In this document: one piece after another, positions 5,518-60,941 of the stretch
Numbering within the stretch: the stretch's first letter is position 1
Layout of the letters: every line of letters begins with the position of its first letter
Source of the DNA: Phycisphaeraceae bacterium
Lineage (GTDB): Bacteria; Planctomycetota; Phycisphaerae; Phycisphaerales; UBA1924
NCBI GenBank assembly: GCA_021297895.1
Contig: JAJTHN010000017.1
Span: 1 to 64,000, forward strand
DNA length: 64,000 nucleotides
Reading direction: 5' to 3'
Made by a program: the position numbers and the translations under genes
Notes under the pieces: generated by a model
What the model saw: the letters and a program-made list of their open reading frames with translations, nothing else
Database searches by the model: none
What the model was told of the DNA's origin: nothing

Positions 5518-6075
5518 ATGGCCCACATCCACGATGAACAGACCGAGCGCCTGCTCACCGCACCACCCGCCGTCATGCGCTTGGCGATGATCCTTCTCGG
5601 CTTTGCGGTTTTCGCCGGCGCGAACATGATCCTCAATCCGCGGCAAAGCGAGGCCGGCCTCCGACCGCAGCCTCAGCCCGCCGCATCGCCCGATGTCGCC
5701 GGCCAGGCCACCCCATGGTCGAGCGGCGCCGCGGCGCCCTTCTCCTCCGCCGCCGATCAGGCGAGCGGCTCATCCGCCCAGACCCCCGCCGATCAGCCCG
5801 GCACCTTCGCGACGCGGACCATCGCCCAGGCCTCGCCCCGGTCCGAGGCCCTCATCGGCACGCTCATCGGCGCGAACTACGTCGTCAGCATCTACAGCAC
5901 CGCCGATGGCCCTCGCTACAGCGTCGCCAGCACCAGCGGCGTGCTGCTCGCCGAGCTTCTCTCGCCCACGCAGGTCCTGGCCCAGTTCCCCGACCTGCCG
6001 ATCGAGGATCTCCGACTGCTCCCCAGCGTCGACCGCCCCGGTCCGATCATGATCGCCGAGCCTGACGATCAGTAA
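5518..6075 (+). CDS. Membrane-anchored protein of unknown function
   Basis: 185 residues from the ATG at 5518. One hydrophobic segment (about 19-38, MRLAMILLGFAVFAGANMIL) anchors it, followed by a Pro/Ala/Ser-rich linker and a compact C-terminal domain (about 110-170) in which YSVASTSGVLLAELLS and FPDLPIEDL stand out. The domain is not assigned to a family I can name; similar short anchored proteins occur in planctomycetes. It is divergent from the adenylate-forming gene (233-bp shared upstream region). Its 3' end overlaps the 3' end of the holin-like gene on the other strand by 29 bases. Confidence 0.6.
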   Translation: MAHIHDEQTERLLTAPPAVMRLAMILLGFAVFAGANMILNPRQSEAGLRPQPQPAASPDVAGQATPWSSGAAAPFSSAADQASGSSAQTPADQPGTFATRTIAQASPRSEALIGTLIGANYVVSIYSTADGPRYSVASTSGVLLAELLSPTQVLAQFPDLPIEDLRLLPSVDRPGPIMIAEPDDQ

Positions 6076-6352
6076 TCACACCCGCGTTCCGCGCCCGCGC
6101 ACGCTGCATGCGTGCCATCGCGTGCGCCAACTCGCGCGATGATGCCTCCAGCGTCGCGATCGCCCGCGTGTTGGCCTCGACAACCCTGAGCAGCGAATCG
6201 GCATGCGCCCGATGCTCCAGCACGCGCTCGTGCGCCTGCGTGAGTTGCTGCTCGCGCACCGCCGCTCCGCGCCGCTCGCTGATCCACAGCAGGCCCATCA
6301 GCCCCGCCGAGCCGAACTGCACCAGCGCCGTCAACACCGCAGGTTCCACCAT
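6047..6352 (-). CDS. Small single-TM, coiled-coil protein, holin-like (last gene of the head module)
   Basis: 101 residues with a good Shine-Dalgarno (GGGAGGG 5-6 bases from the ATG). A hydrophobic N-terminal helix (about 5-24, VLTALVQFGSAGLMGLLWI) is followed by a charged helix predicted to coil (EQQLTQAHERVLEHRAHADS onward). This N-terminal-TM plus charged-helix plan is that of BhlA/UviB-type phage holins and of small phage spanin-like proteins. Function is inferred from architecture and from its position at the end of the phage-type operon. It could equally be a membrane adaptor. It is convergent with and overlaps the end of the plus-strand gene ending at 6075. Confidence 0.6.
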   Translation of the reverse strand: MVEPAVLTALVQFGSAGLMGLLWISERRGAAVREQQLTQAHERVLEHRAHADSLLRVVEANTRAIATLEASSRELAHAMARMQRARARNAGVITDRQARRS

Positions 6353-6422
6353 CGTGCCCTCCCGATTGTGATCATCCCCGATCGCCGTCCCACACCAGGC
6401 GGACGCCGTCGAACCCGAACGC

Positions 6423-6806
6423 TCACAGCAACCGCTGAAAAACCGCCGCGAACTCCATGCTCACCTCGCGGCCTCGATCGATCACGCCAGACGGCTCGAA
6501 CGACACGAAGGTCATATCCGTCCACGTCCGCCCGTGATGATCCGTCAGCGTCCGCCGCACGATCCCGCCCCCGCCCGGCTGCAACTCCGCGGCGATCGCA
6601 TCGATTCTGGCCATGAGCGCCAGCCCGGTGGCCGCCACCAGCCGGCCGCGCACCGTGACCGTCGGCTCACCCGCACCGATCAGCACCGACCCCGCCGCGA
6701 TCGTCCCAAGGCTCAGCCGCGTTCGCACCACCGGTCCCATCGATCCCATCTCGAATCTGTGCGGCGAATCGCCGAATAGATCCACCCCGCCGAACGAACT
6801 CCCCAT
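6423..6806 (-). CDS. Small phage-type structural protein (unassigned)
   Basis: 127 residues with a strong Shine-Dalgarno (GGAGGGGG) before the ATG at 6806. It opens with FGGVDLFGDSPHRFEMG and ends with VSMEFAAVFQRLL; the middle is beta-rich (VTVRGRLVAATG, HHGRTWTDMTFVSFEP). Such small beta-rich proteins are common among tail or neck components. It lies 68 bases after the preceding gene on the same strand, within the block that starts with the portal gene. A tail-associated role is inferred from gene order only. Confidence 0.6.
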   Translation of the reverse strand: MGSSFGGVDLFGDSPHRFEMGSMGPVVRTRLSLGTIAAGSVLIGAGEPTVTVRGRLVAATGLALMARIDAIAAELQPGGGGIVRRTLTDHHGRTWTDMTFVSFEPSGVIDRGREVSMEFAAVFQRLL

Positions 6807-6874
6807 CGCCCCCTCCTCTCACGCCGTCGCGCTCTCGCCGCATTCCCGCGCCCGATCACTCCATGCATCACCGC

Positions 6875-7291
6875 TCACGCCGGCGTCACCGTCACCGGGT
6901 CCGCCGCGCCATCCGCCGACACGCAAACGAACTCCATCACCCGCACCGCACCACCGGCCCTCGCGGCCCCGCCCGCCCCAACCTCGTGATCAACGCGTAC
7001 CAGCACGCAACGGCACACCACCGTCCACGCCGAAGCATCCGCGCCGCCAGCCGTCGCCGACAATCTCAGGTCGCCCAACGTTCCCAGCCCCGGCGCTTCG
7101 GCCGTGGTGGTCGTCAGGCGCTGCCGCAGCACCACGCCGCTGCGCCGTTCCGGCACATCCACGAACACCGCGTTCGGCCCGTGATCACCGAACGCGACCA
7201 CCATCTTCTCCGCGCGCCGATTGATCGCCGCCGACTCAACACCCGCCAGCACCGCCCCTGCAAACTCCACCGCCCCAGGGTTGAAGATCAT
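6875..7291 (-). CDS. Small phage-type structural protein, possibly tail tube or adaptor-like
   Basis: 138 residues from the ATG at 7291, preceded by GGGGAGG about 9 bases upstream; an ATG at 7363 would add 24 low-complexity residues. Visible segments: FNPGAVEFAGAVLAGVES, RRAEKMVVAFGDHGPNAVFVD, then beta-strand-like stretches and a final VRVMEFVCVSADGAADPV. Length and beta-rich pattern suit a tail-tube or head-completion protein, but I cannot name the family. It starts 75 bases after the end of the 210-residue gene and belongs to the same transcription unit. Confidence 0.55.
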   Translation of the reverse strand: MIFNPGAVEFAGAVLAGVESAAINRRAEKMVVAFGDHGPNAVFVDVPERRSGVVLRQRLTTTTAEAPGLGTLGDLRLSATAGGADASAWTVVCRCVLVRVDHEVGAGGAARAGGAVRVMEFVCVSADGAADPVTVTPA

Positions 7292-7366
7292 CACGCCGCA
7301 CCTCCCCGGTCCACCGCTCCGTGCACCGCCGCTCTGCCCATCACGCGCGCCCATCACGCCCACCAG

Positions 7367-7999
7367 TCATCCCCGCCTCAGCCGTCCCGACTGCACCCGC
7401 AACTCCCGATCCGCCACCCCATCCGCATCGCGATCCACGCGCACAACCAGACTCCGCCGCGCCGCCGCGTGCTCGCGTCGGTAGTGCTCGGCCTTGCCCC
7501 ACATCGGGTCATCGTCCCCGCGCATCGCCGCCGCGGCGGTGCAGATTAGCGAAAGCGATCCGAGCGTCTCGACATTCCGCCAGTCGTCCGGATTCATCAC
7601 CATCTCCCGCGACACATCCGCGTTCGGCCCGCCCGCCGACATCCCAAGGTCCGCCAGCAGCCGACGATGCACCACCGCGATCAGCGATGAGAACCCGCGC
7701 ACCTCGATCCTCGCGCTGGCCAGCGTCCGCCACGCGACCGCCGCCGCCGCACGGTCCGGCCGCGGGAGCGACACCACCAGCTCCCGCTCTCCCGCGCGCT
7801 GCACGATCTCCATCGCCACCCCATCGATCAGCGCCACACCTCCCGCGGCGATCTCCGGACACTCCGGCGGCGGTGCATCCGTGAGCACCAGCGTCTGATC
7901 CAGCGAACACATCCCCGCGAACAGCACCTGCGACAGATGCGCCGCATCGCGGAACACCGCCGGCTCTAGCACAACCAAGTCCCGATCCGCCGTGAACAT
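7367..7999 (-). CDS. Phage-type connector/adaptor-like protein (unassigned)
   Basis: 210 residues from the ATG at 7999 (GGAGG at 5 bases); the frame stays open far upstream but that part overlaps the capsid gene and looks non-coding. Notable segments are MNPDDWRNVETLGSLSLIC, which reads like an adaptor helix bundle, and MWGKAEHYRREHAAARRSL followed by an acidic VDRDADGVADREL loop that could bind a metal. It directly follows the major capsid gene, where head-tail adaptor genes usually sit. The role is inferred from position. Confidence 0.6.
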   Translation of the reverse strand: MFTADRDLVVLEPAVFRDAAHLSQVLFAGMCSLDQTLVLTDAPPPECPEIAAGGVALIDGVAMEIVQRAGERELVVSLPRPDRAAAAVAWRTLASARIEVRGFSSLIAVVHRRLLADLGMSAGGPNADVSREMVMNPDDWRNVETLGSLSLICTAAAAMRGDDDPMWGKAEHYRREHAAARRSLVVRVDRDADGVADRELRVQSGRLRRG

Positions 8000-8199
8000 C
8001 CCCGCCTCCCGGCCCCCTGGGCCCGCGTTCCAACACTTCGACCGAGCGAATCTGCCGCCCTCACGCCGATCGCCGTTCCGCCCAATTCCGTCCAGCCCCG
8101 CCCCGTCCCTTCGCCTCGACCGTCCGCAAGCCGCCGGCGAGCATCTCCGCCCGCCGACAGCCCAACGCCACCCCCGCAACCCCGCGTCGTCATCCCGGG

Positions 8200-9363
8200 T
8201 CACGTCAGCCCGCGGATCAGCCCGTGCGCGGCCTCGTTGCGGAACTCCAGCGTGTACTCGCCGATGACCTGCCCGCTCTCGCGATCGCCCGTCGTCGCCA
8301 GCGGCTTGTAGTGAAAACTGCGTCCGCTCAGCGGCAGCACATCGATCCGCGTCGAGTCCAGCAGCAGCACCGTGTCGCCCGGAGCCCAGCGGCTCATGAT
8401 GATCCTGGCCCGGCCAAAGTCCGATTCGTACTCGCTGACCACATCGCGGAAGCGCGTCTGCTCGGGGCCGCTGGTCCTGCTGGCGGTCAGAAAGGCGTTG
8501 ATCCGCCGCTTCATCGCGCCCGAGCACACGATCGTGTCCACGCGCGATCCGCTGTTCTCCCAGACCTGCCGCAGCGCCGCGTTGAGCACGGCCTCGTTCA
8601 GGTCCGTTCCCGCGCCGCCGCCGGCGGGAATCCCGTTCGCTCCCGGCGTGCACTGGTTCGTCGTGATCTGCGGGATGATCCCCGCCATCGTCCGCCGCAC
8701 GCCCGCCGCGCCCTGCGGGTTGGTCGCCGGCGCCACACCGTTGATCACGCAGTTCTCAAGATCGCGCAGCAGTTCGCGCATCCGCTGCTGCATCTGATAG
8801 TCCAGCTCATCCGCGACCCCGTGCAGCCTCGTGGCCAGCATCGAGCCCGAAACCTCCACTCCCGCCGTGAAGATCTGCGTGAAGTTCCGGCGCCGCACGC
8901 GGATCGTCTGCCGCGCATCGGGGCGATCATCCCCCTCCAGCGCCGCATTGCCCAGGATCACCAGCCTCAGCCCGTTGCTCAGCGCCGACAGCGGCGTCCC
9001 GCCGTACCTCCGCACCACCGTCAGGTTGTTCCCGCTTATCGACAGCACGAGCATCACTTCGCGCGAGGTCCCCGGCCGCACCTGATCCCCCGCTCGGAAC
9101 CGCGAGCCGTTGGTCACCGTCACCGTCGTCGCATCCGTCGCGTTCGGCGTGAACGTCGTCTGGTTCACCGTGTCGCTGTTGGCCAGCAACTCATCCTCCA
9201 TCCACTCGTGCACCACGCTGCCCGCCGCCCGCGGCGCATCGCCGAGATGATCCAGCAGCGGCGTCTCGAACGGGCTTACCAGCCCGATCACGTCCGACAC
9301 GTCCTGCACCACCTCCGGCAAGTCCGTCCCCGCGCTGTACGTCGCCTTCCCCGTAAACGGCAT
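8200..9363 (-). CDS. Phage-type major capsid protein, SU10/DUF5309 family
   Basis: 387 residues from the ATG at 9363, which has a near-perfect Shine-Dalgarno (AAGGAGGG, 6-7 bases away). The N-terminus carries the family pattern: DVSDVIGLVSPFETPLLDHL, VVHEWMEDELL, then RFRAGDQV and REVMLVLSISGNNLTVVRRYG. The middle has RNFTQIFTAGVEVSGSM and a long helix LDYQMQQRMRELLRDLENCV, as in HK97-fold capsid proteins of the DUF5309 group. These assemble the icosahedral shell without a cleaved delta domain. No prohead protease is next to it. It lies between the scaffold-like gene and the adaptor-like gene, the normal phage order. Codon use looks like that of the surrounding host genes. Confidence 0.88.
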   Translation of the reverse strand: MPFTGKATYSAGTDLPEVVQDVSDVIGLVSPFETPLLDHLGDAPRAAGSVVHEWMEDELLANSDTVNQTTFTPNATDATTVTVTNGSRFRAGDQVRPGTSREVMLVLSISGNNLTVVRRYGGTPLSALSNGLRLVILGNAALEGDDRPDARQTIRVRRRNFTQIFTAGVEVSGSMLATRLHGVADELDYQMQQRMRELLRDLENCVINGVAPATNPQGAAGVRRTMAGIIPQITTNQCTPGANGIPAGGGAGTDLNEAVLNAALRQVWENSGSRVDTIVCSGAMKRRINAFLTASRTSGPEQTRFRDVVSEYESDFGRARIIMSRWAPGDTVLLLDSTRIDVLPLSGRSFHYKPLATTGDRESGQVIGEYTLEFRNEAAHGLIRGLT

Positions 9364-9512
9364 CTCATCCCTCCTTGCTTCACCGCACCACCCCGGCCCG
9401 CGCGCCGCCCGCGGCACACCCGCCCACGCCACGCCGCCGGATACTCACCACGCCCCCTGCACCCTCATTCCCCGCAACACAGCACCCATCGCCCGCCACT
9501 CGCCCCTCAACG

Positions 9513-10016
9513 CTACCGCCCCGCACCGCCACCTCCGCGGCGTCTGGCCGCCAAGTACTCCAGCACCGCTCGTCGGTCGCCCGATCGCGCCCGCGCCAGC
9601 AACCGCTCATCAGCACCAAGGTCATCGCGCGCCGCCCCCGTCGCCTCGCCCGCCCGCGCCTCGCCCATCACCCCCATCATCCCCGCGACGCGATCCACCG
9701 CGCCAGACCCAACGCTCGTCTGCCGGAACAGCCCCGGCCGCGCCGCACGAACCTTTGCCAACGCCGCGTTCACATCCATCCCACCCGCGCCGCCCGCTGC
9801 ATCCATCGCCGCCTCGATCGCCCCGGCCGCATCATGAACATCCCGCGCCCCCGCCGCTCGCGCTGCGCGTTCGGCATCGGCGCGCCGTTCGAGCCGCTCC
9901 ACCACTCCGCGCGCCGCCGTCAGGTGCTCCTCCAGCCGCGTAAGCCGCTGGTTCAGCGCATCCTCATCCGCCCCCGCTCCCGCCCCCGCCCCCGGCCGCA
10001 TCTGCTCCCCGTTCAT
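9513..10016 (-). CDS. Scaffold-like helical protein of the head module
   Basis: 167 residues, ATG at 10016 with GGGAGGTGG upstream. The N-terminal half is a charged coiled coil (ALNQRLTRLEEHLTAARGVV and following, about 20-60). The C-terminal half is Ala/Gly/Arg-rich and ends in a basic RRRGGGGAGR tail. A small, helical, charged protein between portal and major capsid genes is the standard position of a capsid scaffold. Family not recognised; the assignment rests on composition and order. Confidence 0.6.
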   Translation of the reverse strand: MNGEQMRPGAGAGAGADEDALNQRLTRLEEHLTAARGVVERLERRADAERAARAAGARDVHDAAGAIEAAMDAAGGAGGMDVNAALAKVRAARPGLFRQTSVGSGAVDRVAGMMGVMGEARAGEATGAARDDLGADERLLARARSGDRRAVLEYLAARRRGGGGAGR

Positions 10017-10081
10017 CGCCCACCTCCCGCTTCATGCGTCCACCACCGCTCCCATCCGCATCTCTCCGCCACGCCCGCGCA

Positions 10082-11632
10082 TCACTCCACGCCCTGCTCC
10101 CGCCCATCCGGGTTCAGCCGCTCCAGCGCCCGCCCCGGATCCTCACCCAGGTCCGCCCGGATCCGCGCCGCCTCCGCCGCCACGCGCTCCTCCGTCGGCA
10201 GCGGATCAGGCCAATCCACGCCCGTCGCACGTTCCGATGGCATCGTCGCGATCACCCCGTGCGCATCCAGCGCCGCCAGAACCAACTCGTTCACCTCCAT
10301 GATCCCGCGCCCATAGGTCAGCCGCTTCCGCGCTGTGCGCGTCAGCAACCCCTGCAGCACAATCCGCAGCGCGTTCTCGCTGGTCAGGTTCCCGATCTTC
10401 GCCCGCACCAGCCCCGCGGCCAGCGGCGGCACGCCGCTCTGCTTGTCCATCGCATCACGGATCTCCGCGATGTGCGACTCCTCCCCCGGCGTCTGCTCAT
10501 CACCCCCGAACGCCGTGATCGAAGCCTCCGGATTGTCCGTCGCCCACACCGTCCCCGGCCCCACCGCGCTCTGCTCAAACCCGTCCACGCACTTGACCAG
10601 GTACATCTTGAAACTCTGCAGCGCAACCCGGTTGGCGCGGTCGCTCAGCCTCGTGTTCAGTTCATCCTGCAGCGGGATCAGCGGCTCGACCTCGCTCAGC
10701 CCCTCATGGCTGAACGGCTGGCTCAGGTTCTGCACATGCACCACCGGCACGCGTCCCGCGCCAACGCCGTGCTCGCCCACACCCTCCACCCGCGCACGCT
10801 CACCATCGCGCCCCGGCACCACCCGCCCGCGGTGCGTGCGGCCGATCACCTCCATCGTCCCATCAGCAAGACGCACCGCGAAGGCCCGCAGTTTGCGATA
10901 GTCCCCCGCATCCAGGAGCGCCATGCCGCGAGACGGCTCGATGATCTCGATCCGCACGCACCGCGCCGCGCGACGCACCAGCGCCGCATCCCCCTCCCCG
11001 CTCTCCTCAGCCTCAGCATCCTCGCCAACCCATCGCACGATCAGGTCCACGCTCCCGTGCACATGCCCGATCAGCGCCGCATCCTGCAGCAACTGCGCGC
11101 CGCCGCTGGCCTCCCACACCGCCTCGAGCACACGCTCGATCAGCCCCGCTCGCCCCGCGCCGCCAACCCTGCTGACGATCCGGATCGGCCGGTTGAACAG
11201 AAAGTCCACCATCGCCTGCACACGCCAGGCAATGTCGTTCTCGATCACCACATCCCGCGGCCGCGCCCCCGTCGCTGGCCGCAGCACACCACCCGCGCCC
11301 CCATCACGCAGCCGCGGCGGGAGCCCCCGCTCCTGCGCCAGCCCCAGCGCCCCCGGACCGCCCCGCTCGCTCGCCCACCGCGCACCACTGTCGGCCCCCA
11401 GCCCCCGCGCCGCCTCACGCCACCACGTCACCGCCGGTGCATTGCGAAAGTACGACCACAGCACCCGCGCACGCGGCAAGGTCCACCGCGCGTGCCGCTC
11501 CTGCATCAACCGCAAGTCCCCCTCGCTGACCCCGATCGCCGCCAGCCCGCCGAACGCACCCCCCGCCGCACCCCCCGCCGCACCCCCCGCCGCACCCACG
11601 CCCGCATCCCGTCCGCCCTCGCCGTTGCTCAT
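10082..11632 (-). CDS. Phage-type portal protein
   Basis: 516 residues. After a Gly/Ala-rich N-terminus (about 10-30) it shows portal features: DVVIENDIAWRVQAMVDFLFNRPI (clip/wing region in SPP1-like portals), a beta-rich wing (AVRLADGTMEVIGRTHRGRV), VHVQNLSQPFSHEGLSEVEPL, the long stem helix segment LQDELNTRLSDRANRVALQSF, and a C-terminal helical region with SGVPPLAAGLV and ENALRIVLQGLL. Portals form the dodecameric ring through which terminase pumps DNA. It is the first gene of the minus-strand head module. The matching terminase is not adjacent; it is at 55086-57170 on the other strand. Confidence 0.85.
   Translation of the reverse strand: MSNGEGGRDAGVGAAGGAAGGAAGGAFGGLAAIGVSEGDLRLMQERHARWTLPRARVLWSYFRNAPAVTWWREAARGLGADSGARWASERGGPGALGLAQERGLPPRLRDGGAGGVLRPATGARPRDVVIENDIAWRVQAMVDFLFNRPIRIVSRVGGAGRAGLIERVLEAVWEASGGAQLLQDAALIGHVHGSVDLIVRWVGEDAEAEESGEGDAALVRRAARCVRIEIIEPSRGMALLDAGDYRKLRAFAVRLADGTMEVIGRTHRGRVVPGRDGERARVEGVGEHGVGAGRVPVVHVQNLSQPFSHEGLSEVEPLIPLQDELNTRLSDRANRVALQSFKMYLVKCVDGFEQSAVGPGTVWATDNPEASITAFGGDEQTPGEESHIAEIRDAMDKQSGVPPLAAGLVRAKIGNLTSENALRIVLQGLLTRTARKRLTYGRGIMEVNELVLAALDAHGVIATMPSERATGVDWPDPLPTEERVAAEAARIRADLGEDPGRALERLNPDGREQGVE
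11566..11601. repeat. Three 12-bp tandem units inside the portal gene
   Basis: The unit GCACCCCCCGCC is repeated three times in phase with the reading frame and encodes Gly-Gly-Ala-Ala repeats near the portal N-terminus. The copy number could vary between strains without breaking the frame. Confidence 0.75.
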
Positions 11633-52639: not shown

Positions 52640-53338
52640 ATGTTCCACACGTCGTCCGATCGTTCCGTGTCTCCGATCGCGCCACCCGCCATCGACCCGT
52701 CGCCGCACGCCGAGCCGCCCGCTCGCACCGGTGCCTCGCGCCGGCGACGCGCGGCACGCGTTCACCAACCGAGCGACTTTCTCGCCCGTCGCCGCCGCCG
52801 TCAGCAGCAGGCCAGGCGTCACGCCGAAGGGCGCGAACTGGCGGATCAGTACGTCGAGCGTGCCGCGGCCCTGCCCAGCCGCGACCGCCAGTTGGTGCTC
52901 GCGGTCTACGAGCGCGGCATGTACATCAAGGACGCCGGCGCCGAGCAGGGGCTGTCGCCAGCGATCGCCGGGCGGCGTCTGGCTCGCCTGACGGCGCGCA
53001 TGAAGAGCCCGACATTCGCGATGGTCCTCTCCCGTCGCGATGAGTGGCCGCGAGAGGTCGCGCGGCTGGCGACGCGCATCTTCCTTCACGGCGTCTCGGC
53101 GCGCGAGTCGGCGGATCTCGAGGGTGTGACGTACTTCCGCGCACGCAAGGTGCAACTGGCGGTGCTGCTGCTGCTCAACCAGCGCCGGGTGCAGCGCGAT
53201 CGCGAGCAGATCCGCCGCGACATGGAGATCCGCTTCGACGATGAGCCCGCCGAGGTCCGCGACCCGATTCTCGACACGCCGTCATCCACATCGCCGCCGT
53301 CGGGCCAATCCCGCCCGCCGCGGCCGACATCACGCTGA
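52640..53338 (+). CDS. Tandem helix-turn-helix protein, first gene of the packaging operon
   Basis: 232 residues, ATG at 52640 with GGGGAG 9 bases upstream. After a basic N-terminus (RRRRAAR and RRRRQQQARR, about 34-60) there are two HTH-like units. The first, about 81-121, starts SRDRQLVLAVYERGMYIKDA and resembles sigma-70 region 4; the second, about 136-180, contains ARESADLEGVTYFRARKVQL. The last 50 residues are acidic then Ser/Pro-rich. In this position it may be the small terminase subunit, which usually has an HTH domain, or a dedicated transcription factor. I cannot decide from sequence. The next gene starts 85 bases downstream. Confidence 0.7.
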   Translation: MFHTSSDRSVSPIAPPAIDPSPHAEPPARTGASRRRRAARVHQPSDFLARRRRRQQQARRHAEGRELADQYVERAAALPSRDRQLVLAVYERGMYIKDAGAEQGLSPAIAGRRLARLTARMKSPTFAMVLSRRDEWPREVARLATRIFLHGVSARESADLEGVTYFRARKVQLAVLLLLNQRRVQRDREQIRRDMEIRFDDEPAEVRDPILDTPSSTSPPSGQSRPPRPTSR

Positions 53339-53423: not shown

Positions 53424-54323
53424 ATGACCACCCCCTCCGCTCGTCACCCCACGTCTTCGTCACATGTCACGCCGCGCACGCACGCGGGCGTCCGTCCCGG
53501 TCATCGAGCGCGCCGCCGGGCGCGACGGCGCGTCGCGCTGAGCACGCGCATCGCCCGTCGCCTGCTGCGGGCCGCGGCGATGCTCGGGATTCAACTTCCG
53601 CCGCGGGACCCGCTGGGCTCGCCACCGCCCGGCGCGGATCCGGCCTCAGGCCCGGTGGCCGATGCGGGCCCTTCACTTCCCGATCGAGTCGCCCGAGACC
53701 TTGACGACCACGCCCTGCCGGGCGTCATCACGCTGCTCAGCGGCCCAAGCGGTGTCGGCAAGAGCCGAGCGCTCCGCGCGTTGCACGCACGGCTGCGGGC
53801 GCGTCGACATCGCGTCGCGATCGTGCACATGCTCCGTCCGTCGCGCGACCGCCGACCGCTCGCGTGCGCCAGCAGCGAGCGGCTCGATCGCTGGCTCGCG
53901 CAGCTCGCCCGCGCGGGCCTTGCCGACGCCGCGTTGCTGCCCGTGCGAGCCCGCGACCTGAGCGACGGGCAGCACGCCCGCCTGCTGGTCGCTCGCGCGA
54001 TGCTCCGCCTGGCTCCGAGTCCGCCCGCCCGTCACGCGGCACGGCCGATCGACTCGCAACCGTCGCCGCTCCCGCCGCCGACGCTCATCATCGACGAGTA
54101 CGCCAGCACCCTCGACCTGCTCACCGCGCGATTGCTGACGATCAGCCTCAGCCGATGGGCGCGGCGATCAGGTGTGCGCATCATCGTCGCGAGCGCCCGC
54201 GATGAACTTGTCCCGGCCCTGCGTCGCGACCTGGCCGCGGCGCACCTGCACGTTCGCATGCTCTCGCACGCGGGTCTCATCTCGGCTGAGCCGCAGCAGG
54301 TTGCAGCGGAGATCAATCCTTGA
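53424..54323 (+). CDS. ABC-type ATPase next to terminase (COG2401-like ATPase half)
   Basis: 299 residues from the ATG at 53424; no strong ribosome site is visible and the frame is open further upstream, so the start is uncertain. An Arg-rich N-terminus (about 28-52) precedes one ABC domain: Walker A GPSGVGKS (107-114), a signature-like LSDGQ (179-183), Walker B LIIDE (221-225) with catalytic E225. The switch (H-loop) histidine position reads SARD (257-260), with Ala where ABC ATPases have His. It lacks membrane segments. In COG2401 proteins an ABC ATPase is fused to a GNAT domain; here the GNAT domain is the next gene, overlapping by 4 bases. Confidence 0.75.
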   Translation: MTTPSARHPTSSSHVTPRTHAGVRPGHRARRRARRRVALSTRIARRLLRAAAMLGIQLPPRDPLGSPPPGADPASGPVADAGPSLPDRVARDLDDHALPGVITLLSGPSGVGKSRALRALHARLRARRHRVAIVHMLRPSRDRRPLACASSERLDRWLAQLARAGLADAALLPVRARDLSDGQHARLLVARAMLRLAPSPPARHAARPIDSQPSPLPPPTLIIDEYASTLDLLTARLLTISLSRWARRSGVRIIVASARDELVPALRRDLAAAHLHVRMLSHAGLISAEPQQVAAEINP

Positions 54324-55036
54324 ACATCACCATCTCCATCGGCACACGCGCGGACTACCTCGCTCTGGCGCACCTGCACTACCGCTCGGGCCCGCCCGCG
54401 ACGATCGCCCGCGTGCTCGTCGCCACGATCGACGCATCGGCGGGCGCGGAGCGCGAAACGCCCATCGGCGTTCTGGTCGTGTCGATGCCGACACTGTCCG
54501 GCTCGTGGCGATCTGGCGCGTGGCCCGGTGTCTTCGATGTCGGCACGCCCGCCGAGCGTGCACGCACGCTCAACCGTGACCTGCGCTGCATCTCGCGCGT
54601 CATCGTGGACCCTCGCGCCCGCGGCATTGGTGTCGCCGTCGCGCTCGTGGCGCACTATCTCCGCGATCCGCTCACGCCCAGGACCGAGGCCATCGCGAGC
54701 ATGGGCAATCTCTGCCCCTTCTTCGCTCGCGCCGGCATGACGCCGATCGCCATCAGTCCCTCGTCGCGTGATCAGGCCCTGCGCCGAGCGCTGCGCGATC
54801 ATGGCCTGGATCCGGTCGACCTCTGCGATGCGCCCCGCGTCGCGCGGCGTGCACGTGCACGCCCGGCACTGGGTCGCTCGCTGCGCACGTGGGCCGACGC
54901 CTCACGCGCGACGCGCGCCCAGCGCCACGCCTCGACCGAGCGCCTCGCGGTACTCGCCGCACGGAGTATCTCGCACCGCAAAGTCGCGTTCGTCCACACC
55001 TTCGCCCGTGATGCCGCCGCGCTAGCGCACACCTGA
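54320..55036 (+). CDS. GNAT-fold acetyltransferase-like protein (COG2401-like acetyltransferase half)
   Basis: 238 residues starting with TTG at 54320 inside the TGA of the ATPase gene (TTGA overlap), so translation is coupled. Landmarks: HYRSGPP (20-26), PIGVLVVSMP (48-57), the GNAT motif A core SRVIVDPRARGIGVA (92-106) with the acetyl-CoA pyrophosphate loop RGIGVA, and CPFFARAGM (132-140). HYR and PFFxxAGM are also features I associate with the acetyltransferase part of COG2401 proteins. The C-terminal 80 residues are helical and Arg-rich. The substrate is unknown. TerL begins 49 bases downstream. Confidence 0.78.
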   Translation: MNITISIGTRADYLALAHLHYRSGPPATIARVLVATIDASAGAERETPIGVLVVSMPTLSGSWRSGAWPGVFDVGTPAERARTLNRDLRCISRVIVDPRARGIGVAVALVAHYLRDPLTPRTEAIASMGNLCPFFARAGMTPIAISPSSRDQALRRALRDHGLDPVDLCDAPRVARRARARPALGRSLRTWADASRATRAQRHASTERLAVLAARSISHRKVAFVHTFARDAAALAHT

Positions 55037-55085: not shown

Positions 55086-57170
55086 ATGCCCTCACGCAGA
55101 CCCACGCGCCATACCTCCCGCCGCACCCGTCGCCCTGCCCGCACGTCGCGTGCTTCACGCCCCACGCGCGCCGCGGGAACGCGACGCAACTCCGCCTCGC
55201 GGCGTTCTCCGCAAGCACCGCCCACGTCATCGGCCGCACCCCCGTGCACTTCCGCTGCCAGGTCCGCCGCGTCGGCCGTGCGTGTCGACGGTGATGTCTC
55301 CGCCGCGCCCGCGAACATCGACGCGTTGCACGCGTTCATCGAGCGGACATGGGCCGTGCGTCTGGCGCGTGTGCCGATGGCCGCGCTGCCCGCCGCGTCG
55401 AGCGGTGCGGCGATCGATCGCGCAAGCGGGCCATCTGCTGCCGCGAGTGCCGCGCCGATGGACTACATCGCGTGGGCGTTCTTCGAGGGCCTTCCGCCAT
55501 CAGACGCGCCGCCCGCGACGATCGACTCGCTCGATACGCCGATCGAGTTTCGCCGCGCGCCCAGCGACGCCGTCGTCTGGGCCTCTCGCGGCGGGGGCAA
55601 GACGTTTCTCGGCGCACTGGCCACCGCGCTCGACCTGATCTTCAAGCCCGGTATCGAGGTCCGCATCCTCGCCGGCTCGCTGGAACAGGCCGCACGCATG
55701 CACCACCACCTCCGCGCGTTCTTCCGCATTCCTGCGCTCGAGCCGCTGGTCGCCGGACGAATCACCGATCGCCGACTGGCACTCATCAGCGGCTCGCGGG
55801 TCGAGGTTCTCGCGGCGAGCCAGACCAGCGTCCGCGGTTCACGCGTCCAGAAACTCCGCTGCGATGAGGTCGACCTGTTCCATCCGGCGGTCTGGGAGGC
55901 CGTGCAACTGACCACCCGCTCGCTCGATGTCGCCGGACCGTGGGGCCCGCGCGTCCGCGGCTCGGTCGAGGCACTCAGGACGCTGCACATCCCCGGCGGT
56001 CTGATGTCGAGCATCGTCGCCGATAGCACGCCGATCCCGGGCCGCCCCGACACCGATGCGCACCCGCCCGCGACGCGCGCGCTCTTCCGCTGGTCCGTAC
56101 TCGACGTGCTCGAGCACTGCCCGCCCGAGCGCTCGTGCGATGCCTGCGCGCTTCTGCCCGAGTGCGCCGGTCGAGCCAAGCTCCGCGCCCCGGCCGACGC
56201 GGGACATCTCCGCATCGATGATGCACTCGCTCAGCGGTCGCGCGTGTCGCTCGCGACCTGGAGCACCGAGATGCTCTGCAGACGTGCGAACCGCACCGAC
56301 GCGGTGTTTCCGGAGTTCGACCCGGCGGTCCACCTTCATCGCACCGATGCGGTGCCGACCGCGTCCGAAGGTGCGGCACCGCCACCATCGCCGACCGAGA
56401 CACCTTCGGTGCAGCCACCTCCGCCGGCCCATCCGCTCGCGCCGGAGCAGGTGCTGCCCGGCCCGGTCGGTCCGCAGGCCGCGGAGCACATCGTGCGCGT
56501 GTGCGCCATGGACTTTGGCTGGCGAAACCCAACATTCGCCATCCTCGCGACGCTCAGCCCTGACGGCACGCTGCACATCGTCGACGAGCGATCGTGGGAG
56601 CGCACCGCCATGGAGCAGATCATCGACGATCTCCGCGCCGCGGGCTGGGGCCCCTCCGGGCCTGCCGCGGCGGCCTGGATCGGTGTCGATCCCGCGGGGC
56701 ATCAGCGGACCACCGCCGGTCCGATCAGCCCGATCTCGCTCCTGCGCCGCGCGGGATGGACGGTTCGTGCCGCGCGCTTTCCACTCGCACGCGGCCTCGA
56801 ACTCGTGCGACGCCGATTGGAGCCGCGAGCCGACACGCGACGACCGCCGCGGGCCTCGCTCTCGCGTGCCATTCGCGCGGCGGCGCTGCGCAACTCCCGC
56901 GACGCGAGCGCCGCTCGCGGCGATCAGCAGGAGATCGCCACGCACGCGTCTGCTTCGACCGATCCCGGTCCGTCGCTCTTCATTCACCCGCGATGCTCGC
57001 AGCTCACACGCGCGCTCTCGAACTATCGCTGGCCCGGCGGCCGCCCGGACGCGGCCGAGCCGCTGAAAGACGGCAGCGACCACGCCGCGGACGCGTTGAG
57101 GTACCTCATCGTGAATCTCGATCGCCACCTCGATCGCCTGCATCACCCGCCGGCGATGCGATACTCCTGA
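55086..57170 (+). CDS. Phage-type terminase large subunit (TerL)
   Basis: 694 residues, ATG at 55086 with GGAG 7 bases upstream. A strongly basic, low-complexity N-terminus (about 1-65) precedes the ATPase: Walker A ASRGGGKT (166-173), Walker B LRCDEVDLF with D260-E261, and a coupling region SSIVADSTP. Four cysteines (C345, C351, C354, C360) lie between the ATPase and nuclease domains. The RNase H-like nuclease has MDFGW (D476), GVDPAG (D535) and DGSDHAADALRYL (D665/D669), giving the acidic triad. The protein cuts and pumps DNA through a portal. The portal gene is 43 kb away on the opposite strand. Confidence 0.92.
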   Translation: MPSRRPTRHTSRRTRRPARTSRASRPTRAAGTRRNSASRRSPQAPPTSSAAPPCTSAARSAASAVRVDGDVSAAPANIDALHAFIERTWAVRLARVPMAALPAASSGAAIDRASGPSAAASAAPMDYIAWAFFEGLPPSDAPPATIDSLDTPIEFRRAPSDAVVWASRGGGKTFLGALATALDLIFKPGIEVRILAGSLEQAARMHHHLRAFFRIPALEPLVAGRITDRRLALISGSRVEVLAASQTSVRGSRVQKLRCDEVDLFHPAVWEAVQLTTRSLDVAGPWGPRVRGSVEALRTLHIPGGLMSSIVADSTPIPGRPDTDAHPPATRALFRWSVLDVLEHCPPERSCDACALLPECAGRAKLRAPADAGHLRIDDALAQRSRVSLATWSTEMLCRRANRTDAVFPEFDPAVHLHRTDAVPTASEGAAPPPSPTETPSVQPPPPAHPLAPEQVLPGPVGPQAAEHIVRVCAMDFGWRNPTFAILATLSPDGTLHIVDERSWERTAMEQIIDDLRAAGWGPSGPAAAAWIGVDPAGHQRTTAGPISPISLLRRAGWTVRAARFPLARGLELVRRRLEPRADTRRPPRASLSRAIRAAALRNSRDASAARGDQQEIATHASASTDPGPSLFIHPRCSQLTRALSNYRWPGGRPDAAEPLKDGSDHAADALRYLIVNLDRHLDRLHHPPAMRYS

Positions 57171-58332: not shown

Positions 58333-58632
58333 TCACGGCTTGATCGCGTTGCGGATCGCCGCAACGAGATTGATCAGGTTCTGATTCGTGGTCGGATCGA
58401 GGTTGTTGTCCGGGCTCTTGAGGTGATTGTCGATCGCATCCAGGAGCAGGAGTAATCGTGCCGCGTCCACCGGGTTACTGACGTCGGGTGGCCCCATGGC
58501 ATTGAACACCCCCGTCATGAACGCCACCAAGTCGTGCGCAATCGGCTTGGGTGGCAGATCCGCGCAGTCGCCGTTGTAGAACTTGTACAGACGGCAAATC
58601 AGGTCCCAGAGTTCCTGTTCCCACGTGGGCAT
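58333..58632 (-). CDS. Small acidic/helical hypothetical protein upstream of the LuxR-type gene
   Basis: 99 residues, ATG at 58632 with AAGGA 6-7 bases away. Sequence is helical: WEQELWDLICRLYKFYNGDC, LVAFMTGVFNAMG, LLLLLDAIDNHLKSPDNN, LINLVAAIRNAIKP. No family recognised. It ends 4 bases before the LuxR-type start, so it is likely co-transcribed and perhaps a partner of that regulator. Confidence 0.65.
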   Translation of the reverse strand: MPTWEQELWDLICRLYKFYNGDCADLPPKPIAHDLVAFMTGVFNAMGPPDVSNPVDAARLLLLLDAIDNHLKSPDNNLDPTTNQNLINLVAAIRNAIKP

Positions 58633-58705
58633 CTTCGTCCTTTCTTATGAGCACCGCGCTCACATATCCTCTTCCCCGTTCAGAGACGCTCCGGAGTGTC
58701 CGAGT

Positions 58706-59302
58706 GTGAGCAGCGGCGACGAAAAATCTGAGCACTCGCGACCCGCGTTCGGGTTGCATTCGGACCGACGCGAGCATCTCGCCCATCTTCTCATGAACCA
58801 TCTCCCGGTTCTCGAAAGGGTGGCTCAGCGCAAACTCACCAACCGGACTCGAAGCGTCCATGACGGGGCCGATGTCGCATCCTCAGTGCTGCGACGAATC
58901 GACCGGCTCGCCCTGGAGGGGCGGCTGACCGGGATGACCGATGATCAGGTCGTCGCCTTTGCCGTCACCATCGCCAGCAATCAGGCCATTTCCCGAACGC
59001 GTTCCATGGAGCGCCTGGCCACCCATCTCGGCGAGGACGGGGAGTACGCCCGACTGCTGCATGAGCGCCTTGTCCGGCTTCATGATGATGAGGAGGCGAC
59101 GATGCTCCTCTGCCGCATCGCGCTGGGCATTGAAGACACCGCATCGCGTCAGCTCTTTCTCCTTCGCTGGAAGGGCCTGAGCTTCCCGATCATCGCCCAA
59201 TTGCTGCGGATCACCCCGGAAGCCGCGCGGCAGCGATGGTCGGCGCTCCGGAAGATCCTCGAGGCTCGACTGCGCGGAGGGGAATTCGATGAGAGGCTTT
59301 GA
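58706..59302 (+). CDS. ECF-type RNA polymerase sigma factor
   Basis: 198 residues if started at GTG 58706 (GGAG 9 bases upstream); an ATG at 58793 is the next choice. Region 2-like sequence (HLPVLERVAQRK, VHDGADVASSVLRRI) and a clear region 4 HTH at the C-terminus (RQLFLLRWKGLSFPIIAQLL, TPEAARQRWSALRKILEARL) fit the short planctomycete ECF group. The stop overlaps the start of the kinase gene by 14 bases, a typical sigma factor/kinase pairing. The target promoters are unknown. Confidence 0.78.
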   Translation: MSSGDEKSEHSRPAFGLHSDRREHLAHLLMNHLPVLERVAQRKLTNRTRSVHDGADVASSVLRRIDRLALEGRLTGMTDDQVVAFAVTIASNQAISRTRSMERLATHLGEDGEYARLLHERLVRLHDDEEATMLLCRIALGIEDTASRQLFLLRWKGLSFPIIAQLLRITPEAARQRWSALRKILEARLRGGEFDERL

Positions 59303-60941
59303 ATCCCGCTGGCTGAGCACGCAGGCGGACATCGCATGGCTCAACAGCGAGGTCCCTTATGACTGCCCGGGCCCGGTCGACACCCAGGGGCGGTGGCAAC
59401 TCCATGACCTCGTCGCGGTCGGACCTCGAAGCTGGGTCTACATCGCCCACGATACCCGGCTCTCAACACCGACCTACAAAGCGCGCGTCGTCGTCAAGAT
59501 CAGCCGCGAACCCGGCGGGCGGGAGGCCGAGCTCAGTCGCCAGATCGAGCATCCGGATGTTCCCGCCGTCCTGGACCGAGGGATCACCGATCTCGGTCAC
59601 GCGTACATCGTGCTGGAGCTGATCGAGGGCCAGGGCCTGGACACCATCCCGGTCCCGTGGGAGCGCTCTCTTACCGTCCGGTTTGTCGCTCGCCTGGGGC
59701 GGATCATCGAGGCCGCGCACGCAAGGGGAATCGTTCACTGCGACCTCAAGCCCGACAATGTTCGCGTGGGCACCGACGGAAGGCCCGTCCTGATCGACTT
59801 CGATCTCGCCGCGTTGTCGCAGGGCGACTCCGGCGAGCCGAGTCGGGGCAACCTCGGGTACATGTCTCCGGAGCAGTTCCGAGGCGACATCGATGCGATC
59901 TCTCCGCAGGCCGATGTGTACGGACTCGGCGGACTGCTAACCTATCTCCTCACGGGCCAGCCGGTCAACGGTCGCGACGCCGATGAGGCCCGCGCCAATC
60001 TGGCGGCCGCACGACCGTGGGCGGCGAGTGTCGGCGAGAACGCGCTGAACCTGATCATCCGCCGCGCCGTCGCTGTCAGGACCGCCGAGCGGTATCGCTC
60101 GGTTTCGGACTTCGTGGGTGATCTCGAGCGCTGGCAGAGCAAGTTGCCGATTGCGTGGCAGAACCCCCCGCTGCACCATCGCGTCAGGCTCTGGGTACGG
60201 CGACGTCCCGGAGCCGCGACCGCCGCGGCGGCTTCGATGCTGCTCGCGAGCGGTGTCATCGCCGCGGCGTTTGCCTGGCAGAACATCCGCGCCGAAGCCC
60301 GGGCCGAATCGATCAGGCTCAACGCCAAGTTCGAGGCCGATCGGATCGCGATGGAGGCCCGGAAGGAGGCGGACCTCCTGTGGCAGGTGAATCAACGCTC
60401 ACAGGCCGAGATCGAGCGTCTGCACAGCGCGGGCCGGGCCCAGATCCTGTTGTTCGCAAACTCGATGTTCTCCCGCTCCGCAAGCGGACAGGGTGAGCAG
60501 TACCTGCCCATGCTCAACTTGCTCCGGATGGTCTCGGACTATGCGCTCCTCGAGGCCAGCGGCAGGCCGCAGTTGCTCAAGGAGCGCCTCGCAACGCTCG
60601 AGAAGATGGAGGCGCGGGCACGGGAGCTCGGACAGTCCGACTCGGTCGCTCAACTCCTGACACGCATCGGAATCTGTGAGTTTCTCATACGCGACGGTCG
60701 ATCGAACGAGGCGCTCGAGCGCCTCCGTGCGCTCCGTGCCGATTGGCAGGAGCGTCTCTCGACGAATGATCCGCTCAACGCGGTCCTCGATGCCATCGAG
60801 CTCTCGGCTCGTTTGGGCGTCGGCCAGCCGGTCGATGCTGAAACGCTGCGGCGTTGCCACGAAGCCCTTCAGCGTTCCGATGCTCCCACGATCTATTCGA
60901 AGATCCTGAGCGATGCGGAGAAGGCCTTCTCGCGACCGTGA
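59289..60941 (+). CDS. Membrane-anchored Hanks-type Ser/Thr protein kinase
   Basis: 550 residues, ATG at 59289 with GGAGGGG upstream. The kinase domain (about 35-285) has K70 (VVVKISRE), the catalytic HCDLKPDN with D152, DFD with D170, and SPEQ at 193-196. The glycine loop reads VAVGPRSWVY, which is less glycine-rich than normal. A membrane segment (about 314-334, AASMLLASGVIAAAFAWQNI) leads to a C-terminal helical domain (about 335-550), perhaps a sensor or TPR-like region. It likely controls the sigma factor encoded just upstream, which it overlaps. Confidence 0.88.
   Translation: MRGFESRWLSTQADIAWLNSEVPYDCPGPVDTQGRWQLHDLVAVGPRSWVYIAHDTRLSTPTYKARVVVKISREPGGREAELSRQIEHPDVPAVLDRGITDLGHAYIVLELIEGQGLDTIPVPWERSLTVRFVARLGRIIEAAHARGIVHCDLKPDNVRVGTDGRPVLIDFDLAALSQGDSGEPSRGNLGYMSPEQFRGDIDAISPQADVYGLGGLLTYLLTGQPVNGRDADEARANLAAARPWAASVGENALNLIIRRAVAVRTAERYRSVSDFVGDLERWQSKLPIAWQNPPLHHRVRLWVRRRPGAATAAAASMLLASGVIAAAFAWQNIRAEARAESIRLNAKFEADRIAMEARKEADLLWQVNQRSQAEIERLHSAGRAQILLFANSMFSRSASGQGEQYLPMLNLLRMVSDYALLEASGRPQLLKERLATLEKMEARARELGQSDSVAQLLTRIGICEFLIRDGRSNEALERLRALRADWQERLSTNDPLNAVLDAIELSARLGVGQPVDAETLRRCHEALQRSDAPTIYSKILSDAEKAFSRP

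Follow-up and report, generated by a model that had tools for sequence, protein, structure and literature searches.

An ABC ATPase and GNAT gene pair in the packaging operon of a putative gene transfer agent-like element of Phycisphaerales

Gene transfer agents (GTAs) have so far been described from alphaproteobacteria, a spirochete, a sulfate-reducing deltaproteobacterium and a methanogenic archaeon, and the definition we apply here, as outlined in the same account, names tailed-phage-derived proteins, endogenisation often in several loci, mostly vertical inheritance, random host DNA, tailed-phage-like particles, a head that cannot hold all of the element's genes and DNA delivery (PMC9662315). 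In BhGTA (VSH-1) of Brachyspira, which is induced by mitomycin C, the genes are fixed in the host, terL lies outside the structural cluster and the element co-diversifies with its host, while RcGTA of Rhodobacter capsulatus and its relatives likewise consist of vertically inherited phage-derived genes in multiple loci (PMC9662315). Here we analyse a stretch of 64,000 nt, called the window throughout, from contig JAJTHN010000017.1 (GCA_021297895.1) of a Phycisphaeraceae bacterium of the order Phycisphaerales, whose 3.48 Mb genome (G000) is assembled in 84 contigs. The window encodes an ABC-type ATPase and a GNAT-fold protein directly upstream of a large terminase (TerL), and this pair probably belongs to the packaging operon of a GTA-like element that has been domesticated and fixed in the chromosome of Phycisphaerales. 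An independent domestication is the best reading of these data.

Our main survey covered 151 sampled genomes of the host's order, 46 of them from the host's family; a set of 80 genomes was used for the portal and HK97-family searches, and a wider survey of the phylum comprised 392 genomes (E ≤ 0.001). Compared with the described systems, the encoded proteins are of tailed-phage descent (TerL by phrog_2, portal by phrog_104, major capsid protein (MCP) by phrog_1328 and by solved capsids in the PDB), they are endogenised over two loci 41 kb apart, with GNAT matched in 86 and MCP in 83 of the 151 genomes, and their tree distances follow those of rpoB (Mantel r 0.61–0.86). We use the term GTA-like element because these sequence-visible GTA features were found, yet no tail gene was recognised. 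The element differs from BhGTA in belonging to another phylum and in its ABC–GNAT pair, which does not appear in the description of BhGTA as far as PMC9662315 gives one. It is set apart from RcGTA by an SPP1-type portal, an MCP of phrog_1328, the separation of packaging and head loci and the presence of the ABC–GNAT pair. For RcGTA we take the HK97-type families PF05065 (capsid) and PF04860 (portal) to be diagnostic; neither has a match in G000 at E ≤ 0.001, and HK97-type families are sporadic in the 80 genomes (portal in 13, capsid in 10 genomes), so by the families tested the element is not RcGTA-like. A stand-alone domesticated terminase was considered while the HK97 families appeared sporadic, and was dropped once the SPP1-type portal family was matched in 61 of the 80 genomes. 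From the planctomycetes, a prophage of Zavarzinella formosa has been described whose TerL lies near the RcGTA-like TerLs (PMC7947584). Judged by titles and the opening lines of abstracts, our searches of the open PubMed Central literature gave nothing that deals with a GTA of Phycisphaerales; nor did they give a paper on COG2401, or one that brings a GNAT, an ABC ATPase, a terminase and ParB together.

The packaging operon runs on the plus strand and starts with a helix-turn-helix (HTH) protein, c3 (52640–53338), with a sigma-70 region-4-like motif (TIGR02937, 1.8e-4; a relative matches Sigma70_r4_2 at 1.9e-11). It is followed by the ABC-type ATPase (53424–54323), similar to the first half of COG2401, whose reading frame of 299 residues extends from an ATG at 53424 to a TGA stop at 54321–54323, the same frame being open from 53241. 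The GNAT-fold protein (54320–55036, 238 residues), similar to the second half of COG2401, begins with a TTG at 54320–54322, so that start and stop share the TTGA at 54320–54323. TerL (55086–57170) begins with an ATG 49 bases past the GNAT stop, although its true start is uncertain and about 100 N-terminal residues are poorly conserved. It matches phrog_2 at 2.2e-13, and its Walker A and B and nuclease acidic residues are intact: G169, G171, K172 and T173 (GGKT), D260–E261, D476, D535, D665 and D669 are invariant in 21 sequences. These coordinates confirm the preliminary description of the window, which had reported the TTGA overlap and the 49-base spacing, and the HYR and PFFARAGM segments it had noted in the GNAT protein are present at residues 20–22 and 133–140.

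The setting of the pair is a bacterial chromosome, not a phage. The operon is flanked by nuoF, ABC-F, LuxR and kinase genes (names assigned by eye), and within 40 kb of it only the operon's own genes and the ABC-F gene match any of 18 module profiles. A phage or prophage context was rejected, as the flanking genes are chromosomal and the two loci are all that is common to nine of nine long regions; the earlier idea of the pair as part of a phage has accordingly given way to a chromosomal system inherited with its host. A Terminase_6N search of G000 for other terminases gave no match, although the same model also misses the TerL described here.

The operon is conserved in the order. Within the family, GNAT was matched in 45 of 46 genomes, and in the remaining one (G113) the contig ends inside the operon. 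Throughout the order, ABC was matched in 82 genomes and together with GNAT in 81, while the HTH protein was matched in 77, mostly adjoining GNAT. The GNAT counts include a probably spurious match in G006 (E 4.7e-4, 46 residues in a 73-residue frame), and the ABC match of G129 is probably a different ABC gene. TerL adjoins GNAT in all 20 relatives picked for GNAT. TerL relatives in named genomes numbered 329, of which the best 80 loci were kept; almost all of these carry Phycisphaerales, Phycisphaeraceae, Phycisphaerae or Planctomycetota in their titles. ABC and GNAT lie upstream of TerL in 63 of the 64 loci whose sequence reaches 2.6 kb or further upstream of the TerL match (the exception is L206). 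The arrangement thus exceeds chance. Two of the TerL loci, L144 and L134, are titled Cyanobacteria bacterium and Isosphaera sp. and fall among the Phycisphaerales hits, so that these titles may be wrong. In six loci of families f4–f6, a ParB-like protein is encoded between GNAT and TerL, and in five loci a small protein is encoded there, which may be a putative TerS by its position and size.

A single open frame joins ABC and GNAT in 27 of the 63 operons, which is the domain architecture of COG2401 (MK0520-like) as judged from the annotation of phage relatives; in the window the two domains are split. The COG2401-like character proposed in the preliminary description agrees with the relationship to phage proteins annotated as COG2401 or MK0520 and with the one-frame relatives, with the reservation that the window pair itself is split. 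Its proposal that the pair serves DNA packaging or particle control stands as far as the place in packaging is concerned: in the neighbourhood survey it called for, the pair proved linked to TerL in 20 of 20 relatives, 63 of 64 loci and three of three phages opened, and this linkage in relatives and phages alike gives good support to a place among the packaging machinery.

The head genes, which the preliminary description does not mention along with the pair, lie 41–49 kb from the operon on the minus strand of the same window (6047–11632). The first of them encodes an SPP1-type portal (10082–11632; phrog_104, 3.4e-14), followed by a scaffold-like protein (9513–10016; own family profile, 3e-16) and the MCP (8200–9363; phrog_1328, 5e-80). 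The scaffold-like protein of the window has no PHROG match; one of its relatives matches the head scaffolding family phrog_194 at 0.003. In the PDB, the MCP matches the solved phage capsids 9ny2 (1.5e-35), 9in6 (3.8e-18) and 7z45 (1.7e-11), and its alignment has a mean column identity of 67%. Further downstream follow three conserved genes, d3 (7367–7999, start taken at MFTADRD; own profile 4e-45), d6 (6875–7291, frame open to 7363; own profile 1e-49) and d4 (6423–6806; own profile 6e-47), and finally d5 (6047–6352), a small holin-like protein with a hydrophobic stretch near its N-terminus (by eye). Family matches of d5 are weak (0.05–0.08, to families 'involved in bacteriocin production or immunity'), and it has no Pfam assignment. 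The gene order is fixed: in the window and 20 relatives chosen for the portal, we found the portal in 21, the scaffold-like protein in 16, the MCP in 19, d3 in 14, d6 in nine, d4 in 11 and d5 in ten of the 21, some of the absences being gene-calling misses; a profile search recovers all seven genes in the contig of the window. Portal and MCP occur together in 59 of the 61 portal-positive genomes. The MCP is matched in 46 of 46 genomes of the family (split in three, a fragment only in G107), and further into the phylum in 54 of 392 genomes, three of these matches being weak.

Packaging operon and head locus belong together by co-occurrence, inheritance and selection. Over the 151 genomes, GNAT and MCP are both matched in 78, GNAT only in eight, MCP only in five and neither in 60 (Fisher p 5e-27, uncorrected for relatedness); the eight GNAT-only genomes include the G006 match, and four others of them (G070, G106, G130, G133) are assemblies of 40–470 contigs. 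Of 72 genomes, 36 have both loci on the same contig, at a median distance of 39.7 kb (range 11–645 kb), and in the seven single-contig genomes with both loci they are 32–130 kb apart. In the window they span about 51 kb together, with other genes between them. When nine regions of 80–120 kb were compared, only the HTH, TerL, portal, MCP and holin-like clusters were common to all nine; ABC and GNAT scored eight and seven, the probable cause being frames that were joined or wrongly split and so failed the reciprocal-hit rule. G458, a class-level relative whose genome is a single contig, has the two loci on the same strand in a stretch of about 14 kb, separated by ammonium-transporter-like and transposase-like genes (by eye).

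For comparison with the host tree, 24 genomes had rpoB and 17–21 taxa were used per gene. Tree distances correlated with those of rpoB at r = 0.855 for the portal (21 taxa), 0.709 for TerL (18) and 0.614 for the MCP (17), values that none of 5000 permutations each reached in the Mantel test. In close pairs, the ratio of nonsynonymous to synonymous substitution rates (dN/dS) was 0.02–0.20 for the MCP, 0.03–0.24 for the portal and 0.04–0.34 for TerL, while GNAT gave 0.20 and 0.45 in its two valid pairs; dS exceeded 1 in some pairs, so these values are rough. The GNAT rows G053/G068 and G049/G055 and the TerL row G049/G055 (wrong or partial open reading frames) were left out, as were three further rows lacking a usable dS. 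The third-position GC content (GC3) of the eleven module genes is 0.79–0.90, similar to the 0.80–0.92 of three host genes. The two loci are shown to co-occur, to follow the host tree and to be under purifying selection.

Relatives of the pair are also found in phages. A GNAT relative is present in each of 19 phage records, and in some of them the annotation reads 'ABC-type ATPase fused to a predicted acyltransferase domain' or MK0520. In the three we opened, SSU5, nickie and BUCTxx99, one or more ParB-like genes are followed by ABC, GNAT, one to three small genes and TerL (for SSU5 the order was traced across the ends of the linear record), the capsid genes come after TerL, a portal is annotated in two and a methyltransferase gene is present in one. 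In these phages, as in the window, the pair is split. Profile alignment with hhalign to the nickie pair gave 99.9% (E 4e-35) for ABC and 98.2% (E 3e-14) for GNAT. Unlike the element described here these are phages, SSU5 having an annotated tape measure gene, and the MCP of nickie belongs to phrog_212, which the window MCP matches only at 0.036. The MCP has a homologue (31.6% over 95%) in Sporosarcina phage Lietuvens, an ordinary phage in which a single stretch holds terL together with the portal, capsid and tail genes. TerL had no match in named phages, and the portal matched seven records at 36–41% coverage. Among 65 viral-contig loci, six hold both TerL and MCP relatives, one (L263) holds most of the head cluster and may be host DNA, and the GNAT profile matched none. 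Since TerL and MCP relatives stand together in these six loci, phages of this head type exist and are a plausible source of the element.

As the pair adjoins TerL in phages and host alike, we place its action at the start of packaging, where it would most likely form an ATP-driven DNA-handling complex. The ABC protein passes the Pfam ABC_tran cut-off of 25 with 27.3 bits, its Walker A, LSxG and DE motifs are kept in 34 of 34 sequences, and the predicted model has an ABC fold with a good core (mean pLDDT 76.8). The GNAT protein is below the Pfam threshold, matches phrog_886 at 5.4e-10 and is predicted to adopt a GNAT fold (pLDDT 94.3). Its invariant residues in 45 aligned sequences include H20, Y21, R64, R89, R93, R101 and E123, the HYR segment being less strict at R22 (27/45); M140 is kept in 45 and G139 in 44, and of the coenzyme A (CoA) loop residues Arg101 is found in 45 and Gly104 in 43. 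Top Foldseek matches include a tRNA cytidine acetyltransferase, NAT10, KacT, AtaT and RimI, all with low TM-scores. A structural alignment (VIA, model residues 1–235) to Mom of phage Mu (8bv8) reached Z 12.6 with a root-mean-square deviation of 3.2 over 145 aligned residues, tied within 1 Z with many GNATs among the families listed. Profile comparison gave no sequence homology to Mom (hhalign probability 0.2%, and 0.6% against seven Mom sequences); in the second comparison the raw score of 10.3 exceeded the at most 3.4 of 20 shuffles, but only a single column was aligned. Mom as a sequence homologue is therefore not supported by profiles and remains a fold-level lead.

Concerning control, a divergently oriented gene for an S24-type repressor stands beside the operon in 17 of 21 neighbourhoods (20 relatives and the window). 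The one member scanned combines HTH and S24 domains (PF00717, 64.8 bits; lexA TIGR00498, 4.7e-8), and pattern matching found an AG site in 14, GDSM in 13 and FKRV in 16 of the 17. An S24-type repressor with such cleavage features suggests SOS control of the element, similar to that of BhGTA with its induction by mitomycin C. In the mechanism we propose, DNA damage would cause the S24 repressor, with AG site, Ser and Lys in most members, to cleave itself, whereupon the sigma-4-like HTH protein would switch on the packaging and head genes. Capsids would then assemble, TerL would dock on the portal and fill the heads with fragments of host DNA, and the holin-like protein would help lysis. The ABC–GNAT pair would act at the start of packaging, its GNAT subunit acylating either the DNA to be packaged, in a Mom-like manner, or a motor protein.

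Several observations weigh against a functional GTA-like element. No tail genes were recognised in Pfam, PHROGs, NCBIfam or PDB profiles, none lies between the adjacent loci of G458, and d3, d6, d4 and the f6-type genes d10 and d13 had no match in the libraries tried. The S24 repressor gene is not beside the operon in the window or in three of the 20 relatives, and no shared operator was found upstream of the two loci, since the match in nine genomes did not exceed the highest one among 12 control genes. In the ABC protein, the H-loop His is replaced by Arg (R259, window positions 54198–54200), as in eight of 34 sequences, 21 having His. Some copies are visibly damaged: in-frame stops interrupt the MCP of G071 and G014, the portal of G089 and the GNAT of G107, the last of which also has one open frame with portal and MCP fragments (L323 near 11589) as its only MCP remnant and is a decaying copy, and in five of the 83 genomes with an MCP match the gene is split by an insert. 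Finally, G025, G026 and G058 (93–98% complete) keep the operon and show no match to the SPP1-type portal or this MCP, and because of these genomes we regard the GTA-like reading with caution.

The lack of recognised tail genes and the last three genomes would also fit a domesticated capsid and packaging module whose purpose is not gene transfer, in which tail-less, DNA-filled capsids are kept or released on lysis and serve as DNA storage, decoy or damage response, with ABC–GNAT taking part in loading. We consider this rather unlikely, as the holin-like gene past the head genes in nine of nine long regions points to release, and tail genes may be too divergent to be recognised, five genes (d3, d6, d4, d10 and d13) being without assignment. 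Phage descent of the parts, broken copies and copies with in-frame stops, and the six viral-contig loci with both TerL and MCP relatives could instead be read as repeatedly acquired, decaying prophage remnants with the pair as leftover phage cargo. This is highly improbable given an MCP match in every family member and a GNAT match in all but one, distances that track rpoB, dN/dS values well below 1, the invariant TerL catalytic residues and the lack of any other gene conserved in all nine long regions.

Within the preferred reading of a GTA-like element, two roles for the GNAT protein compete. It may be a Mom-like base modifier that, with help from ABC and ParB-like proteins, marks DNA for packaging or shields it from the restriction of the recipient. 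Mom is among the best VIA matches, a Mom protein ranked second in the viral library, an HY that follows the first helix and an Arg in the strand preceding the CoA loop (matched by eye) are common to 45 of 45 sequences here and seven of seven Mom sequences, and the phage versions bring ParB-like genes in three cases and a methyltransferase in one. The profile comparisons, however, speak against homology, the top Foldseek matches are RNA and protein acetyltransferases, and a fold shared with Mom shows no function; we hold this role to be a possible but rather doubtful one. The alternative, in line with the modification of capsid or terminase suggested in the preliminary description, is that GNAT acetylates the MCP, the portal or TerL and thereby times maturation; it appears somewhat more doubtful still: the conserved CoA-loop Arg101 and Gly104 and fold neighbours such as the protein N-acetyltransferases RimI and NAA60 agree with it, whereas in three phages the pair follows ParB-like genes, across TerL from the head genes.

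The most far-reaching version of the GTA-like reading, which we put forward as a speculative and rather unlikely one, is that Phycisphaerae carry an ancient, independently domesticated GTA in two chromosomal loci under a cleavable repressor, that ABC and a Mom-like GNAT mark or modify the loaded host DNA, and that the GTA capsid gene has now become the insertion site of capsid-bearing satellite-like elements. If the GTA-like reading itself is true, it would add a further independent GTA, retained by over half of the order's sampled genomes and by nearly all of those in one family, it would suggest that whole bacterial lineages kept virus-like DNA transfer over very long times, and it would place a COG2401-type ABC ATPase and acetyltransferase inside DNA packaging.

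The inserts mentioned above (L316–L320, in G097, G033, G119, G125 and G140) lie between about codons 55 and 64 of the MCP and measure about 10.5–11.4 kb. Those of G097 and G033, which were clustered, share a large serine integrase and a prohead protease–capsid fusion; one of each was scanned and matched phrog_95 (integrase) and phrog_4523 and NF045541 (fusion). Primase- or methyltransferase-like genes occur in the three inserts sampled. The insert resembles a capsid-bearing satellite-like element with the GTA-like MCP gene as its site. In L321 (G015, 7138–9626) the MCP is broken otherwise, its first and later parts lying on opposite strands as after an inversion. Beside their main copy, some genomes hold weaker MCP relatives (E 1e-25 to 1e-31; G004 contigs C36, C49 and C65, G014 C3, G024 C15 and G027 C2), which may be genuine prophages with this type of capsid, and G012 has a shortened portal copy (L086, C1 near 3293822; L325) about 68 kb from its head cluster.

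Downstream of d3 and d4, some f6 and f5 genomes (L071, 12543–19544; L072, 13465–19785; L084, 13977–19901) encode one or two copies of d13, a LamG-domain protein (PF13385), a TIGR03790-like protein (below cut-off) and d10, a group that carries no tail assignment and possibly represents surface or receptor-binding proteins. In the window, just past the packaging operon, a sigma-factor-like gene is followed by a serine/threonine-kinase-like gene (58583–60941, by eye), both of which stand outside the conserved set.

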